Of a DNA stretch of 57,449 bases, positions 25,593-37,757 are shown piece by piece. The DNA is from Nitrospina sp. (GTDB lineage Bacteria; Nitrospinota; Nitrospinia; Nitrospinales; VA-1), in NCBI GenBank assembly GCA_018702695.1, contig JABIYR010000112.1:1-57449 (forward strand), in the 5' to 3' direction. How positions within the stretch are numbered: the first letter of the stretch is position 1; each line of letters opens with the position of its first letter. The translations under genes were made by a program, and so were the position numbers. The notes under the pieces were generated by a model that worked only from the letters and a program-made list of their open reading frames with translations, was not told the DNA's origin and did not search any database.

Positions 25593-26251
25593 CCACGTAC
25601 CTCAGAACTCGCTAAGGGGGTCAAATTGTGCAAGGATTTTTTAATTTCAGAAAATAAAATAGCACCTTGTCGGACAATACGAACGGGTGTTTCAACCGCA
25701 TCGATTAGGGTGGAAGGTTCTCCCCCAAGACACGCACCTCCATCCAATATCAAGTCTACCTTATTTCCGAAAGAGTGTTGAACTTGTATTGCTGTAACAG
25801 GTGGCGGTTCTCCTGAGAGATTTGCGCTGGGGGCTGTGATGGGTTGCCCCAGAGCCGAAATTAAATTGACGGCTATCGAATTTCCGGGGTGCCGAATGGC
25901 TATTTTTTTTGACCCTGCCAATATGTTCTTGGGAATGATGGAGCGGGGTTCAAAAAGAAGGGTTAATGGGCCGGGCCAAAAATGTTGCATTAAAGCGGAG
26001 TGAGCCGGATTGATTTCTTTCACCAGTAATTTCAGTTGTACTTTTGAATTGATTAAAAGGATCAGTGGTTTGTTGCTTTCGCGTTTTTTTAATTCAAAGA
26101 GCCGATTGACAGCTTCTGCGTTAAAAGGGTCTACCCCCAATGCATAAAACGTGTCCGTCGGAAACGCGATCACCCCTCCTGCGCATAGAACTTTCCGTAC
26201 CTTTGCTAAAACAGCATCGGTGTTGGAGTTAACCTTTAAAATTTGCGACAT
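25589..26251 (-). CDS. tsaC: L-threonylcarbamoyladenylate synthase (TsaC/Sua5 family)
   Basis: A 220-residue enzyme that makes threonylcarbamoyl-AMP for the t6A modification of tRNAs. The YrdC fold shows FPTDTFYALGVDPFN, KKRESNKPLILLI with the conserved basic residues, and PSANLSGEPPPVTA. It lacks the extra C-terminal Sua5 domain, so it is the short TsaC/YwlC form. It overlaps purE and acpS at its two ends. Confidence 0.93.
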   Translation of the reverse strand: MSQILKVNSNTDAVLAKVRKVLCAGGVIAFPTDTFYALGVDPFNAEAVNRLFELKKRESNKPLILLINSKVQLKLLVKEINPAHSALMQHFWPGPLTLLFEPRSIIPKNILAGSKKIAIRHPGNSIAVNLISALGQPITAPSANLSGEPPPVTAIQVQHSFGNKVDLILDGGACLGGEPSTLIDAVETPVRIVRQGAILFSEIKKSLHNLTPLASSEVRG

Positions 26252-26747
26252 GGCGGGTATTTAGTTTTTTGCTTTTTTGCGCAACGGCCTTGGCTTGATC
26301 TTTTTTGTATTTTACAAGTTGGCTTGAAAGTTTGTCATCCGACAATGCTAGGATTTGAACTGCTAAAATACCGGCATTTTTCGCACCGGGTTTGCCAATG
26401 CTCACCGTTGCAACGGGTACGCCTCCCGGCATCTGAGCGGTTGATAAAAGTGAGTCAAGCCCATTGAGAGATGTGGAATCGATAGGGACACCTATCACAG
26501 GAAGATGTGTTTCAGATGCAATCACTCCGGCAAGGTGGGCCGCGGCCCCTGCGCCTGCGATCAGCACTTTAATACCTCGGCGTTTTGCTCCTTGAACATA
26601 TTTTTTGGTTCGTTCAGGGGATCGGTGAGCCGAGGAGACGAGAATTTCATGGGGAACATTAAAGTGCTCGAATACCTTGCTCGTTTCTTCCATAATAGTG
26701 AAGTCTGAGTCACTTCCCATTAAAATGCCAACTAAAGGTTTACTCAA
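26229..26747 (-). CDS. purE: N5-carboxyaminoimidazole ribonucleotide mutase
   Basis: A 172-residue class I PurE, which converts N5-CAIR to CAIR in purine synthesis. VGILMGSDSDFTIMEE, SAHRSPERT and AGAAAHLAGVIAS carry the active-site Ser, Asp, His and Arg. I place the start at TTG 26747, which gives the usual MSKPLVGILMGSDSD and has GAGGTG six bases upstream; a GTG at 26756 is the alternative. No purK gene is adjacent. The 3' end overlaps tsaC by 23 bases. Confidence 0.93.
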   Translation of the reverse strand: MSKPLVGILMGSDSDFTIMEETSKVFEHFNVPHEILVSSAHRSPERTKKYVQGAKRRGIKVLIAGAGAAAHLAGVIASETHLPVIGVPIDSTSLNGLDSLLSTAQMPGGVPVATVSIGKPGAKNAGILAVQILALSDDKLSSQLVKYKKDQAKAVAQKSKKLNTRHVANFKG

Positions 26748-26840
26748 GATAAACACCTCGAAGTTTCAGGAATAGTTTTGAATTTAGGGACAACTTTTAT
26801 AACAATTTTTTAATGCAGGATCAAGCTTAAGAGCCTATCG

Positions 26841-29800
26841 TTAAACATCTTCACAAACCGTTCGAAAACCTAAAAAGGAAGTGCAATAACTCCGTAGAAA
26901 AGATATTCGACGCCATGCCGCGATATGTTTATAGTGAGTGATGAAACTCCCGCCCCGAGCTATTTTATATTCTAGGTCATAAGCGGAGCCGCTGGAACCT
27001 TTTTTATCGTTAGTGTCCTGCATCCACTCAAAAACGTTGCCAAATAGATCCTGAATACCCCCTAATAATTCATTCTCATAAAAATGATCGACGGGTAAGG
27101 TGTCTAATATCCCAGTTTCTTCAATATTACAGAACTCAACTATTCGATCCTGATCCCAGAGAAACTGGTCGGGAGAAATTTTCCCAAAATCGCTGGCTAC
27201 ATATTCCCATTCTTTTTCGCTAGGCAAACGAATGCTCTGCCCTGTCATTTGGCTTTTCCATTGGCAATAGGCTTGCGCATCGTTCCAGGTGACCTGCGTT
27301 ACCGGGTGATTATGCTTTCCGTATAAAGAGTCGGGTTGACCATCAGGGCAAAGCCAGAAGGCATCTTTAATAGGCCCCAAACTGGGGTTACAAAAAGAAG
27401 TTCGGTTGGCACGCGTCCCTTGAAAAATTAGTTCGCCACTTTGATAAACGATAGCATCGATCAATGTTTCTGCCTCTGTTTTATATTGGGTCTCATTCAC
27501 AAAACGAAAAAACTCAATATTGGTGACGGGGTATTTTTTGATCAGAAAAGGTTTTTCGACCTGGACCTGTTGGTGCGGGGCAGAGTCTTTAGATTGGGGG
27601 TGTCCCATCAAGAAACCCCCTTTGGGGACATGCACCCACTCATCCCACTGCTCGCTGAATTGGTAAAGATAATCCATGATATGTGGGCTTTGTTCGCTCG
27701 GCGTGCCCAACCCCAAACGGTGACGGATGGCTAAGGGCCACTCGGCCTTGGCGAGAGCATCGTCGTACTCCAATGGCTTGCTACCGTCATCATCGGCGAC
27801 CACCTCAATCTGACCTTTTTCTTTTTCAGTGTGAAACGCGTCAGAAAGTTCTTCAAACGCTTTGCCCAAGCTGGTTAGCTTGTTTTCATAATGAGAAAGG
27901 TTTTCCATCAACTCTGCTTTTCGGGATTCATCCTCTTTGTTCATCGACTGTTTGACTTCAGCCAGTTCTTTTACGAATTTTTGATATTCTTCTACGCGGT
28001 TCTTAAGGTCGCCTTCCATCGAGTCTACGACAGACTCTCTATGTTTGAGCCTTTCCTGAAGTTCTCTTTCTGCAACCCGGGTATCTTCAGTGATCGATTT
28101 TTCTTTTTCCTTCAGACTTGTTGTTAAGCGAACGGCCTCGTCTTCCATAGAACCGATTCGGGTTTTGAAAGCTTCATATTCGCTGTTCTGCGTGTTTTGA
28201 ATGTCGGTGTAAATGGTATTGAAATCAGCGAGAAATTTTACGACTTCATCTTTGTGTTGGGAGACTTCGGCTTTGATAGTTTGGATTTCCTGAAGTTCTT
28301 GCATCACTTCAGATTCAATTTGAGTTGATTTCTCTAAGGTCTGTTTTTCTTCATCGAGGAGTTGTTGCTGATGGGCGATAATACCCTGTTCATCCTGATC
28401 TAGCTTTTCCTCTTTGGCATCGAGGGCCATGTCTTTTTCAATTTGTTCCACCTCGAGAGAGTTTTTAAACTCTTCAAACTCATCATTCATGCGCTTAAGT
28501 TCCTGCGTTTCTCTTTCCAATAAATGTTTTTCCTTACTACGCTGTCGTTTTTGTTCGCTTAGCAGGGCCTTGGTTTGCTCCGTGACTTTTTGAGATTCCT
28601 TGGAATGCTCAGTTTCAAGTTCCTTAATTTTAGTCTGAATTTCTTCATCGATCTTGGGGCGCGACTCTTCCATTTCCTGCAATAACTTCTTCTTCCTTTT
28701 CAGGAGGTTGGCTTGGGTTTTTGCGGCGGTTTTAATCTGGTCTACGGCGAACTTGCCGCCATCAATGCCGCTCAGCTCTTTCAGGAGACTCGCCTTTTCA
28801 ACCGCACTTTCTTTTTCATGTTTATTGAGGAGTTTCTGTTTTTTTGTGAGCTCTCTTTCTAGCTTATCCAGCTCTGCCTGCCGCTTTTTAGTGTGTTCGT
28901 CAGCTTTTTTTTGCGCTTCAAGGGCCAACCCTTGCTCGCGAATTCTTAGTAACTCATTTTCACGGCCCAAACGTTCTTCATCTTCATCAAATTCTTCAAT
29001 CCGACGAATATGATATTCTGACTTTCTTTGGAATTCTCGCTCCAGCTCTTCTTTTTTCTTTTCATACTCTTTTTTTAACCTGAGCTTAAAGTTTTTCTTT
29101 TCTGTTTCGAGTGATTTTGAGAGCTTAAGAAGTTGCTGGTTTTTTTTGGATTGTTGCAGAGTCGCTTTTTTGATTTGTAATTGTTTGGTCTGAGTGGACT
29201 TATAGTTCTTTTCTTTGAGCTTTTGAAGATTTTGCTCTTCGGCAAACATCTTTTCCATCAACTCTGTCATTTCATCAAACTTGGCTCTGAAAATTTCATC
29301 TCGTCTTGAAAAATCTGTGTCAAACTTGGACCGCGATGTTTCATGTTCTGCTAGCCGTTGACTCCTCTCGCTTCTCAATCCCTCCAGTTCGACACGGGCT
29401 TCTTCTAAATCCTTGTGCAGGCGCGCTGTTTCTTTTTCAATTTGTTCCTTAGACTTTTCGTTATGCTTTAGTTCTTCTTCGCGTAAATTTTGTAGGCGTA
29501 TGCGAAACTGGGCATTTTCTTGTTCGAGTTGAATCTTGCTTTCTTCCAGCTCCTTCTCTTTATCAAGAATCTCTCGCATTTGTGCATTGGTTTGCTCTTC
29601 GCGTTGTTTTAACCGCTCTAGTTGTTGCTCGAACTCTTGTTTAAGTTCTTCCGGTAGGTTAAATGTGACCTCCGACTCTTTGAATTTCTTTGCTTTTGCA
29701 GGGGCTATATCGGATGTCGTGAGGGGTTCTTGTTTTTCTACCACTTGGATGAAGGCATAGTCGGGGCCTACGATTATTTCTGCTGGATTGCCTTGTCGGG

Positions 29801-30068
29801 AAATGCAGTCAAACAACTCACGGTTGAGTTTCTCTCTTAGCACGTTCAGCCAGTCTAAGCGTTGCTCTTGATTTTGAGGCATTGAAACTTCAGCTTTCTC
29901 AAGAGCCTTCAGTATTTCAAGGGGGTCAATAGATTTCTTGTTGTCGGGTTTTTGCCCAGGCGTATAAAAAGCCTGAATGCTGTGAAATAAAGCCACCGCT
30001 TCCCGGTCCCCAGACTGCGAATAATGATCCGCAAGGTATTGAATATTTTTTAGGCTGAAATTTTCCAT
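26841..30068 (-). CDS. Giant coiled-coil protein with C-terminal FGE/sulfatase-modifying-factor domain
   Basis: A 1075-residue protein with no signal peptide or membrane helix. A small N-terminal domain (1-110, with a VGPDYAFIQVVE strand) is followed by an almost unbroken Glu/Lys/Gln-rich coiled coil from about 135 to 760. The C-terminal domain, at about 810-1075, has the FGE-sulfatase fold: VPKGGFLMGHP, KKYPVTNIEFFRFVN, HPVTQVTWNDAQAYCQW, RLPSEKEWEYVAS, DLFGNVFEWMQD, ARGGSF and the terminal LGFRTV. The pair of active-site cysteines of true formylglycine-generating enzymes is not evident, so this is more likely a binding domain. It stands alone between purE and an MFS gene. Function unknown; a long scaffold or tether is the natural reading. 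Confidence 0.88.
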   Translation of the reverse strand: MENFSLKNIQYLADHYSQSGDREAVALFHSIQAFYTPGQKPDNKKSIDPLEILKALEKAEVSMPQNQEQRLDWLNVLREKLNRELFDCISRQGNPAEIIVGPDYAFIQVVEKQEPLTTSDIAPAKAKKFKESEVTFNLPEELKQEFEQQLERLKQREEQTNAQMREILDKEKELEESKIQLEQENAQFRIRLQNLREEELKHNEKSKEQIEKETARLHKDLEEARVELEGLRSERSQRLAEHETSRSKFDTDFSRRDEIFRAKFDEMTELMEKMFAEEQNLQKLKEKNYKSTQTKQLQIKKATLQQSKKNQQLLKLSKSLETEKKNFKLRLKKEYEKKKEELEREFQRKSEYHIRRIEEFDEDEERLGRENELLRIREQGLALEAQKKADEHTKKRQAELDKLERELTKKQKLLNKHEKESAVEKASLLKELSGIDGGKFAVDQIKTAAKTQANLLKRKKKLLQEMEESRPKIDEEIQTKIKELETEHSKESQKVTEQTKALLSEQKRQRSKEKHLLERETQELKRMNDEFEEFKNSLEVEQIEKDMALDAKEEKLDQDEQGIIAHQQQLLDEEKQTLEKSTQIESEVMQELQEIQTIKAEVSQHKDEVVKFLADFNTIYTDIQNTQNSEYEAFKTRIGSMEDEAVRLTTSLKEKEKSITEDTRVAERELQERLKHRESVVDSMEGDLKNRVEEYQKFVKELAEVKQSMNKEDESRKAELMENLSHYENKLTSLGKAFEELSDAFHTEKEKGQIEVVADDDGSKPLEYDDALAKAEWPLAIRHRLGLGTPSEQSPHIMDYLYQFSEQWDEWVHVPKGGFLMGHPQSKDSAPHQQVQVEKPFLIKKYPVTNIEFFRFVNETQYKTEAETLIDAIVYQSGELIFQGTRANRTSFCNPSLGPIKDAFWLCPDGQPDSLYGKHNHPVTQVTWNDAQAYCQWKSQMTGQSIRLPSEKEWEYVASDFGKISPDQFLWDQDRIVEFCNIEETGILDTLPVDHFYENELLGGIQDLFGNVFEWMQDTNDKKGSSGSAYDLEYKIARGGSFITHYKHIAAWRRISFLRSYCTSFLGFRTVCEDV

Positions 30069-30183
30069 GATTATCGTGGGTCTAATGCGCTGGACTTTGA
30101 AGTCTTTACCTGTTGAACGGTGAAATTAGGAAAAACCTTACCTCCATCATTATATCAAAGGAGAAGATGGGGTTAAAGGTATG

Positions 30184-31419
30184 TCAATGGGTGTTTTTCC
30201 ATCTTCCGTGTTTGATTTCCGGGATGAGCATGAGTGTTGCTACCACCATCATGGCGCAAGAAAGGATACCGATATTTTGCGCTCCAATCACTCCCACCGC
30301 CCAATAACCAATAAGAGGTCCCAAAGTTCCCCGAATTCCAGTTAAACTGACATGCACCGACATATAGGCCCCTGTTTTTCCGGGTGGGGCATATTTGGTG
30401 ACCCATAGGTTCCAGGCAATACTGCCTCCCGCAAAGGCGATTCCTATTAATGCTGAGCCGGCACCGATCACCCAAGGGTTGGAACTGATAAAAAATAGCA
30501 AGATCCCTGCTCCGAAGGATAGGTTCAGAATCATTCGTAGTACTACGAAATTCATTTTATCAAATAGTCTGGCCCAGAATGGAATCAATAACATTCGCAG
30601 TGTTTCGGGGATGACCGTGATAATCATGGCGACAAAGATTGCCGATCCTTCAATACCCCATTGCGGTGCAGTGAGATAATCCACTCGCAACGGCAACGTC
30701 CATAAGTTAGCAAAGCCCATAATGAGCCAAGTTAATAATACATAACCAAAAGAGCGGTCCTGCAATGCATATTTCATGTTCCCGAAAGGGTGTGCATGGG
30801 GGCTGTTATCTAATTTTTTGGACGGCATGCAATAGATCGCCATGGCTTTTAAAAAAGCGCAGAGACCTAAAAAAGTAAACAGGAATGAAAAATATTCGAT
30901 ATCTTTTTCAAGAATTGATGACCCTATAAAACCAGAAAGAGCGGCGACCCCCACCGATAAAACTAAGGACTTGGAAAAAATCGCTCCACGCCGACTGGGT
31001 GGGTAATTGTCTCCGTAAATATCTGTGATGAAAGGAAGCAGAGCGCTACGACTGATGTATGCAATGACGACAAAAGTAGCGAAGAGGTAAAGCGAAGTGG
31101 TCCACGCCGCAATCAGAAGACAACCTCCTGTAACGGTAGATGCAATGGCCCCCCATGTGGACTTCTCCCAATTTGTTTTGGAAGCATAGTGTAATAACAG
31201 CATGGAAAGAAACATGCCCATAAAAGGGGCGGCGGCGATCAGAGATTTGGTCGTTGCCTCGGCATCGAAATATCGAATGGCTATAAATAAACAGAATGTT
31301 TGAGCGCCAGAAGAAAGCACTCCCTCAAACCCTCCCCGCCACAAGTCACATTGATAGGTTTTTTTTGTGATCTCATCAGCGGTCAAGCTGGAATAATTTT
31401 GTTTGAATTTAAAACTCAT
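30184..31419 (-). CDS. Major facilitator superfamily transporter
   Basis: A 411-residue inner-membrane protein with about twelve helices in two halves, and a central loop after SFLFTFLGLCAFLKAMAIYC. The segment YGDNYPPSRRGAIFSKS fits the cytoplasmic loop of MFS carriers. The ATG at 31419 is used rather than a TTG two codons upstream; neither has a good ribosome-binding site. I cannot name the substrate. It is divergent from the sensor-kinase gene at 31615 and follows no clear operon. Confidence 0.85.
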   Translation of the reverse strand: MSFKFKQNYSSLTADEITKKTYQCDLWRGGFEGVLSSGAQTFCLFIAIRYFDAEATTKSLIAAAPFMGMFLSMLLLHYASKTNWEKSTWGAIASTVTGGCLLIAAWTTSLYLFATFVVIAYISRSALLPFITDIYGDNYPPSRRGAIFSKSLVLSVGVAALSGFIGSSILEKDIEYFSFLFTFLGLCAFLKAMAIYCMPSKKLDNSPHAHPFGNMKYALQDRSFGYVLLTWLIMGFANLWTLPLRVDYLTAPQWGIEGSAIFVAMIITVIPETLRMLLIPFWARLFDKMNFVVLRMILNLSFGAGILLFFISSNPWVIGAGSALIGIAFAGGSIAWNLWVTKYAPPGKTGAYMSVHVSLTGIRGTLGPLIGYWAVGVIGAQNIGILSCAMMVVATLMLIPEIKHGRWKNTH

Positions 31420-31614
31420 TAACAATGCGGTGTGTGTTTTTAAGTCGGTATTTTTAATACGTTGAAAAACAATTATTTAGTGCAGATCGTCTCTTAGATG
31501 GCTTTAAAAGAAGATACTCGAGTTAGGGTATTATCGGCTAAGGTTTGTAGGGCGTTAACAAAAAGACTATACTATTTTCCCACCAGTATTACACTTGATT
31601 GCTTTGTATAAAGT

Positions 31615-35360: not shown

Positions 35361-37757
35361 ATGAGCTCTGAAGAAGATCTGGTTCCCGGTTTTGATGGAG
35401 AAAAAGTTCCTGTTGCTTCAGAACGGCCGGAAGAGTCCATTGAGTGGGTGATCGAGACTTATAGAAAACACCAATTAAAAATAGTTACTAATTGGTTGGA
35501 TGAGTCCTTACCGAAAGGCAATCGCAGAAATATATTGATTCCTCAGATCTTGCTGGACACCAATCCCGTCATGCATAGGCAAAGTCTGCTGGAACAAGTC
35601 TTTCCTGCACCTCGAAAAGTAAATGAAGACTTGCTTGAAGTGAATCGTTTGAAGCTCATGTTGGACGCTCAGTCGGGAATGGGGAAAACCACCTTTCTAA
35701 AATATTATCAGGAAGAGCAATTACAGAAACCGACTCATCAGGTTTATTCCTTACCGGTCTATTTTCATTTAGGGTGTCTGGAAGAAGGGGCGCGGTTTGA
35801 CCTGTTTCGTAAAAATTTGAACCGTGAAATTATAGCGGTGATTTTGTTGGAACTCGAAGAAGACCCGGAACTCACTTTGGATGAGAGCCTTCTTGAAAAT
35901 ACGGTCAACTCTATTTTTAACTACAGCAAGTGCATGCTTTTATTAGATGGTTTTGATCAGCTTCATCCGCAAGATCGGTTTCAGTTTTTTATGGAGTCTT
36001 TTCTGGATGACAACGCCTTCCGTAGTAATTTTGTTTTGCTCGCCAGTCGTGGTTTTAACTTTGGTTCTTTATCCACCGATGCAGTCATTAAACGTGGCGA
36101 AAGTACCGCCTTTCAAATGACTTTTCAGAAGCTCGATGTAAAAGAGTGCGCTTCCTACCTGAAAGATGCTTCCAAAAACAGAAAACTGGTCGACTTAGCT
36201 TTATACACCCCGGAACTTTTAGAAGTGCCCATCTTGTTGTCCATGATCCGTGAACTTTCCGAAAATGAGATTCTTGAAGGGTTGCAAAATAGGATGGAGA
36301 TTTACTCGGCTTGGTTTCGTTTTAAACTGAAATCAGCCAACCCTTCAGCAGATGAAGCTTGGGTTGAAAATAGTTTGGATCAACTGGCTGAAATTTCTTA
36401 CCGATTGATGGCGGAGGATAAGCACCAACGCTTTCTGGATGTGGAGCCGGGTTACACAAAAACCATTTTTGCAGAAAATCCGGTTTTTTTGAAAGAAGGA
36501 GCTATGGCTCCTTGGTGGGAGGGTATCTTGCAACAAACGGCTCGACGTTGGGAGTACCACCACCCCTCGTTTCAGGAGTTTCTAGCGGCCCGGTATATGC
36601 AAAATAGCGAGGGTTGGGAAACCATTGTCAGAGAAAACTGTGGCAATGAAAAATGGCACGAGGCCATTAAAATTTTGTCGGGAAGTGTTTCCGGCGAAAA
36701 GCTATTTGATATTTTGATTGCAGAAGGAGCGGTGATGTTGGCTGGCAACTCACTGGCTGAAGTGGGCGATCTGCCAAAGGGGCAAAGTTTGTTGGTGCGG
36801 CAGTTGTTAAAATATCAATGCAAGGAAACCCTCCCTCAATTTGCTTTGTGTCGGCAGGTGCGTGTCGAAGAAGTGTTTCAACATAACGAAGCTGAGTATT
36901 TGGATAATTTATTGAAACGCCTATTGACCCGTGAGCACCGAGACAGTCGAATTTTATTCAGCGTATTAGAGCTGATCCTTGCAAAACAAGGGCATAGTTT
37001 TCACCGTCTGTTGGACAGCTTTGATTTAGAACCGCTGAAAAGTCTGGATGCGTTGCAAGCCTTTTTTATGGAAGTCCCGCAACTGGATAAAGCGGGCCAA
37101 TCGGTACTAAAAAAACTGGGCGAGAAGGTCACGATTCCGGCAGGACCCTTTATTTATCAGGATGAAGTCGATGAAGAAGATCAGATCCTGATGAAAGAAT
37201 ATTCGATCATGAAATTTCCGGTGACGAATGCGTTGTTTGAACAGTTTGACCCACAGCATAAGAACCGATTCCCTAAATATTCTTTTGATGCGGACCAGCC
37301 CGTTATTGGCATTAACTATTATGAGGCCGTGGTTTTTGCTCTGTGGATGGGGATGAGACTGCCGACAGAGCAAGAATGGGAGAAGGCCGCCCGAGGAACA
37401 GATGGTCGGATTTATCCTTGGGGTGAGGCCATGGGCTATGAAAAGGGCTTTGCCAACACTTGTGACTTCATGGCGTGTAAGACCAGCCCTGTCACGGACC
37501 TAGAGCAGGGGATGTCGCCATATGGCTGTTTTGATATGGCGGGGAACGTTTGGGAATGGTGTATGCAGAAAAATGTCTCCGTGCATTCCACCCAAAGGGT
37601 GGTTCGAGGCGGCTCTTGGATGAATTATTTGGTTCACGCCAAATGTGCCTTTAGAAACTCTTTTGACCCGACCGAGCGATATTTAGCCGTTGGTTTACGT
37701 TGTGTTGAGGCACCTCAATTCACTGAAATTGAAAGAGAGGATGAGGATGATCTGTAA
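35361..37757 (+). CDS. NACHT (STAND) NTPase fused to a C-terminal FGE-sulfatase domain
   Basis: A 798-residue cytosolic protein. After an approximately 90-residue N-terminal region comes a NACHT-type NTPase: Walker [11 protein letters not shown] at 102-111 (Ala in place of the first Gly), Walker [13 protein letters not shown] at 190-201, and the winged-helix signature [14 protein letters not shown] at 400-413. A helical region follows (about 420-585), then a compact FGE fold at about 590-783 ([60 protein letters not shown]) and an acidic tail. STAND proteins oligomerise on ligand binding, with the C-terminus as sensor. There is no obvious N-terminal effector domain. It stands alone. Immune or signalling use is inference. 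Confidence 0.88.

Follow-up and report, generated by a model that had tools for sequence, protein, structure and literature searches.

The window analysed here, a stretch of 57,449 nucleotides from a contig of Nitrospina sp., harbors on its minus strand a gene (26841..30068; ATG start at 30068, stop at 26841-26843) that encodes a protein of 1075 amino acids, hereafter the rod protein. An initial annotation had listed this ORF and its length, and it stands as a real gene; the minus strand, which had been left unstated, is a correction. The gene is flanked by purE on its 3' side (26229..26756, minus) and by a gene for an MFS transporter on its 5' side (30184..31425, minus). Both neighbours are conserved and belong to a conserved block, lpxL-acpS-ywlC-purE-[rod]-MFS-cinA-rhomboid-NACHT/FGE-HD response regulator-motAB-ribD. 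Frequently preceded by flhA-flhF-flhG-fliA, this block is nonetheless found elsewhere in G025 and G038, with the rod gene still inside, and nearness to flagellar genes is therefore not specific. Since the rod gene travels with the purE/MFS block and not with flhA, membership of a flagellar operon, as judged by synteny, is ruled out. As for the flagellar sigma28 regulon, no convincing sigma28 site was seen upstream of the rod gene or its orthologues. What is present is a putative sigma70-type promoter with an extended -10 element (TTAACC-16-TATAAT with TG ahead; 30149..30176, minus), and a TGnTATAAT-like element is conserved just upstream of most orthologues, across genera.

Among 77 genomes of the phylum, full-length or edge-cut rod genes are confined to four families that belong to a single order, and the gene is thus specific to the order of the Nitrospinaceae. 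In a scan of 84,980 species, all relatives came from Nitrospinota except for one weak match limited to FGE, but the scan also missed distant orthologues of the same order, so that absence elsewhere is unproven. The site between purE and MFS is conserved throughout the order and the rod gene is cleanly absent from it in several clades, which points to a gene that was ancestral to the order, had a fixed place and was repeatedly lost. In two genomes of the g8 clade, G028 (L083) and G022 (L081), an ORF of about 130 amino acids with weak similarity to the HD response regulator lies beside purE at the place of the rod gene. That the reading frame is more than a chance ORF is confirmed, on sequence grounds, by full-length orthologues in four families and by pN values (0.10-0.36) far below a pS near saturation; purifying selection is apparent on the N-terminal domain, the rod and the head. 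The head is the most conserved region, which argues for a maintained module and not for debris.

The central part of the protein is a predicted coiled-coil rod of 616 amino acids (residues 134-749; 27822..29669, minus). A variable linker (residues 116-133; 29670..29723, minus), whose length differs among orthologues, precedes it and a link to the head follows (residues 750-808; 27645..27821, minus). Around 620 residues of near-continuous coiled coil had been proposed initially, and the 616 residues delimited here agree with this. The hydrophobic stripe along residues 134-749 has one coherent period of 3.56, with a power far above chance (38.5 vs a 95% maximum of 8.4 in shuffled sequences), and in the AF2 model a single unbroken helix starts at residue 140 and reaches the end of the part that was modelled. 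The composition is about 20% basic and 24% acidic, and prolines are very scarce. A period of 3.56 is between heptad (3.50) and hendecad (3.67) packing, and frequent stutters are therefore expected. Indeed, the search for register breaks that had been recommended revealed that the register drifts along a sliding window, with glycine/proline positions near 432-440 and 471. The periodicity suggests that chains pair into a coiled coil, which, at 0.1485 nm per residue, would be about 91 nm long.

The length of the rod is strictly kept. In 20 of 21 orthologues, the rod aligned to that of the window protein without any indel, with identities that range between 22% and 76%; only L043 deviates, by one gap of 5 amino acids. 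SMC arms from the same genomes, taken as a control, had 0-3 gap residues at 33-41% identity in distant pairs. NACHT-FGE and flhF had several gaps, and lpxL, cinA, flhA and MFS (48-76% identity) nearly none. A gap-free rod is thus not a unique property, as SMC arms are almost as strict; rather, length and register of the rod appear to be constrained about as in this known mechanical coiled coil, and also at lower identity. The charge spectrum has weak long-range peaks only and no strong repeat. Two patches of the rod, residues 510-546 (28431-28541) and 341-395 (28884-29048), are near-invariant and include R519, E520, E523, E539 and K394; their conservation seems to be above what helix packing needs, and they are possible lateral docking sites.

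The N-terminal domain (residues 1-115; 29724..30068, minus) is the fastest evolving and least conserved part and is missing in the orthologues of G038, G039, G041 and G043. Modelling of the first 110 residues and of the head had been suggested in the initial annotation. The AF2 model of residues 1-115 (pLDDT 80.5) has four helices and two short strands; Foldseek gave no fold match at E<=0.001 and no Pfam family scored above cut-off. No transmembrane-grade segment was found in 22 orthologues, in which the highest 19-residue Kyte-Doolittle mean was 0.94. This is in line with the initial view of a protein free of signal peptide and membrane anchor, and membrane-anchored homologues, which would have contradicted that view, amounted to none among the 22. 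A cytosolic rod with a non-catalytic binding head is well supported.

The head (residues 809-1071; 26856..27644, minus) is the sole Pfam domain of the protein (PF03781, E=1.3e-41). It matches human FGE (SUMF1) with 1.2e-24 as a single sequence and with 2.9e-40 as a profile of 22 members, and Foldseek assigns the AF2 model of the head, which is of modest quality (pLDDT 65), to FGE as well (E=5e-10). In the profile alignment both cysteines of the human motif GGSYMCHRSYC face other residues: T1044 (26937..26939, minus) is aligned with the catalytic Cys336 and I1049 (26922..26924, minus) with the catalytic Cys341. With Thr and Ile opposite the human cysteines, the copper-binding pair is gone. The corresponding motif reads GGSFIT, GGSYIT, GGGYLT or similar among orthologues, and the pair is absent in 22 of 22; in L043 (genome G039) the first position alone is occupied by a Cys. 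The claim that an FGE-sulfatase fold is present here without its catalytic cysteine pair was therefore correct. In distant orthologues the identity of the head is 42-62%, whereas that of their rods is 22-43%, and 0-13 residues of the head alignment are gaps in the same comparison. The head is thus probably a non-catalytic module, devoid of the cysteine pair, and it may serve for docking.

Could the protein nevertheless be a coiled-coil stalk that carries a working enzyme of the FGE/sulfoxide-synthase superfamily? Its head retains the fold and many core residues, but the cysteine pair is missing in every orthologue, a DinB-type partner domain as in EgtB, OvoA and SenA is not found in the rod protein by Pfam, and the NCBIfam models of these three score 49-71 bits vs cut-offs of 360-420. 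Cysteines and domain layout thus rule out, as far as can be read from the sequence, the identities of FGE enzyme and sulfoxide synthase, and we regard this explanation as the least probable of all. In passing, PF03781 domains are strikingly expanded in genome G000 (L021-L039), which has 19 of them in 2.49 Mb, several with N-terminal signal-like sequences.

A second gene with an FGE domain is located about 5 kb from the rod gene (window 35361-37757, plus strand). It encodes an NACHT-type NTPase of 798 amino acids with a C-terminal FGE domain and is found at the same place across the order. FGE-type domains are known from STAND-linked and VMAP conflict systems (PMC7159879, PMC10907252), and together with this neighbour they could lead to the assumption that the rod protein is a conflict or immune-like sensor whose FGE/C-type-lectin head detects molecules of invaders. 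However, the rod protein has no NTPase, TIR or nuclease domain, neither it nor the NACHT-FGE protein was matched by PADLOC, and the head of the rod protein is the most conserved region and is not diversifying. Moreover, NACHT-FGE is retained even where rod, flhA and motAB are lost, which rules out a coupling of the rod to this gene. A role in conflict is thus very improbable. A sensor had also been among the options considered initially; for this we see no positive support, as the head is highly conserved and no match to an NTPase, a kinase or a defence system is attached to it. The alternative named alongside it, a tether or cytoskeletal element, is strengthened by a rod length that is kept without gaps.

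A cellular context, for which the initial annotation gave no hint, emerged from the losses of the gene. Within the genus of the window and its sister genus the rod gene is broken or gone in G005, G010, G012, G014 and G033. In a tree of seven neighbour proteins, used to place the decays, these are five separate tips, and the decays are therefore taken as independent. A CheW domain is absent in five of five rod-decayed genomes. Flagellar or stator genes have decayed in four: G005, G012 and G014 are without intact flhA and G010 is without motAB at the locus. Conversely, flhA is present in all 25 genomes with an intact rod. All five losses fall among the 6 CheW-null of 17 genomes (tip-count p about 0.001), and in a set of 14 genomes, 5 of which have an impaired flagellum or stator, 4 of 4 losses fall among these 5 (p about 0.005); these p-values are post hoc, come from several markers tried, ignore branch lengths and have genome shrinkage as a confounder. 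In G033 (L048 2145-3728), an in-frame deletion of about residues 185-739 fused the N-terminal domain and the first stretch of the rod to the head, leaving an open frame of 528 amino acids. A gene that is broken in relatives had been named at the outset as something that would refute the proposal. The gene is indeed broken in some relatives (G010, G012, G014, G021 and G033), but chemotaxis or flagellar genes are lost there too, and this coincidence argues for conditional dispensability and not for a non-gene.

Two further genomes, G002 (L111) and G020 (L112), have lost motA and have a remnant of motB behind the HD-domain response regulator; flhA is intact and the rod is kept. They weaken a coupling of the rod to motAB alone, and CheW tracked the rod better. 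G011 kept the rod without a CheW or MCP match, in a MAG that is 82% complete. These three genomes speak against a link to motility, as do the clades g14 and g5/g8, which have flagella and CheW but no rod, the unspecific nearness to flagellar genes and the sigma70-type promoter of the rod gene. Taken together, the rod protein is probably linked to the motility/chemotaxis machinery, as judged from this pattern of joint decay. Its association with genes for motility and chemotaxis is a new finding.

Genome streamlining alone could have the same outcome. If the rod were a tether for another cytosolic or membrane process, independent of motility, then its erosion and the loss of chemotaxis would both result from shrinkage; four of the five decayed genomes are at or below 2.0 Mb (G005 1.7, G010 1.8, G014 1.6 and G033 2.0 Mb), and flagellated, CheW-containing clades lack the rod, namely g14 (G042, G044, G046, G048) and g5/g8 (G019, G022, G028, G032). 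Shrinkage does not explain G012, though, which has 2.6 Mb, is 98% complete and yet has broken rod, flhA and motAB. Nor did the block erode as a whole: NACHT-FGE, MFS and cinA are intact in the decayed genomes whose assemblies cover this stretch of the locus. We consider such a motility-independent tether unlikely, although it is to be taken seriously.

With a non-catalytic head that is conserved, a rod under register constraint and no membrane anchor, the rod protein looks more like a cytosolic scaffold or tether than like an enzyme or a sensor. We tentatively favor, at somewhat less than even chances, a cytosolic, non-catalytic scaffold or tether of fixed length that has a pseudo-enzyme head for docking and serves the machinery of motility and chemosensing. 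Two or more chains would pair over the 616-residue coiled coil, giving a rod of about 90 nm. The pseudo-FGE head may then dock one partner, and a second would be bound by the small N-terminal domain or by the beginning of the rod. The protein would thereby keep cell parts at a set distance or array them laterally, and the partner machinery would most likely be the motility and chemosensory apparatus. There is precedent for coiled-coil proteins acting on motility: HmpF of Synechocystis co-precipitates with chemotaxis receptors and a pilus ATPase, and the Ccrps of Helicobacter and AglZ of Myxococcus affect motility (PMC7002697). On these grounds we rank a motility scaffold first, a filament or a motility-independent tether next, and a conflict sensor or an enzyme far behind.

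The filament just mentioned would be an intermediate-filament-like cytoskeletal protein: filaments of the rod would set cell shape or stiffness, the head would decorate or cap them, and the absence of the rod from streamlined lineages would mirror an altered cell form, lost motility being a correlated symptom. In favor of this, the coiled coil is long and free of gaps, its register is constrained and its breaks are conserved; crescentin and similar coiled-coil proteins determine shape (PMC10873595), and cultured members of the group do differ in shape, with a helical Nitrohelix and a short-rod Nitronauta (PMC8026999). But the charge spectrum lacks a strong long-range repeat of the staggered-assembly type, phmmer against the PDB gave FGE-fold proteins only, with neither crescentin nor another coiled-coil structure among them, and the rod gene is present in helical and short-rod relatives alike, provided that G017 and G037 are those strains. 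A shape-determining filament is rather doubtful and stands level with the motility-independent tether.

Returning to the motility scaffold, it is tempting to speculate further that the protein is a dedicated molecular ruler: a rod fixed at about 90 nm would link the chemosensory or flagellar machinery to some other part of the cell and would dock via a repurposed FGE head devoid of the catalytic cysteines. We think this improbable, but, if true, nitrite oxidisers of the Nitrospina type would have a spatial organiser of bacterial motility that is new in kind and specific to them. With rod length so exactly conserved, a direct test of a ruler or lattice mechanism is feasible. The phylum of the Nitrospinaceae is described as the ocean's most abundant known nitrite oxidisers (PMC8026999), and the rod protein is a candidate for an uncharacterised internal scaffold in this family. 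It is encoded in the genome of at least one cultured strain and probably in those of two.

How does the rod protein compare to known systems? A described protein with this layout was not found in the literature searched, as the initial annotation had surmised, and the sequence search beyond the phylum reached close relatives only; nor was a paper found that links Nitrospina to sulfatase-modifying factors or connects FGE-sulfatase and coiled coils. Over its full length the head can be aligned with FGE of human and bacterial origin, but unlike SUMF1 the rod protein has Thr/Ile at the positions of Cys336/Cys341, no signal peptide and a 616-residue rod attached. The head also matches human SUMF2 (pFGE), an FGE paralogue with no known catalytic activity; SUMF2, however, is a protein of the secretory pathway and is not known to have a coiled coil. 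An FGE domain that serves in binding or sensing is a trait in common with STAND/VMAP and DGR proteins (PMC7159879, PMC10907252), but the rod protein differs from the former in having no NTPase or effector domain and from the variable proteins of the latter in having a conserved head and no hypervariable region. PorK/GldK are structural ring proteins with an FGE-like domain, to which the rod protein is connected by a weak NCBIfam match and by PDB matches; they are envelope lipoproteins, whereas the rod protein has no signal peptide.

As for the rod, its near-absolute resistance to indels across the same genomes is like that of SMC arms, but in contrast to SMC/Rad50 it carries neither an ABC ATPase head nor a hinge, PF03781 being the only domain. 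To our knowledge, none of crescentin, FilP, the Ccrps of Helicobacter, AglZ and HmpF has an FGE head, and for crescentin no relationship in sequence was evident. Nevertheless, there is a likeness in kind: these proteins are long cytosolic coiled coils, several of which affect shape or motility (PMC7002697, PMC10873595), and a long, apparently cytosolic coiled coil without transmembrane segment is also what the sequence of the rod protein predicts. The rod protein would thus be a new architecture inside the known class of coiled-coil-rich bacterial scaffolds, and it would add pseudo-FGE domains to the known protein-binding heads on coiled-coil scaffolds.
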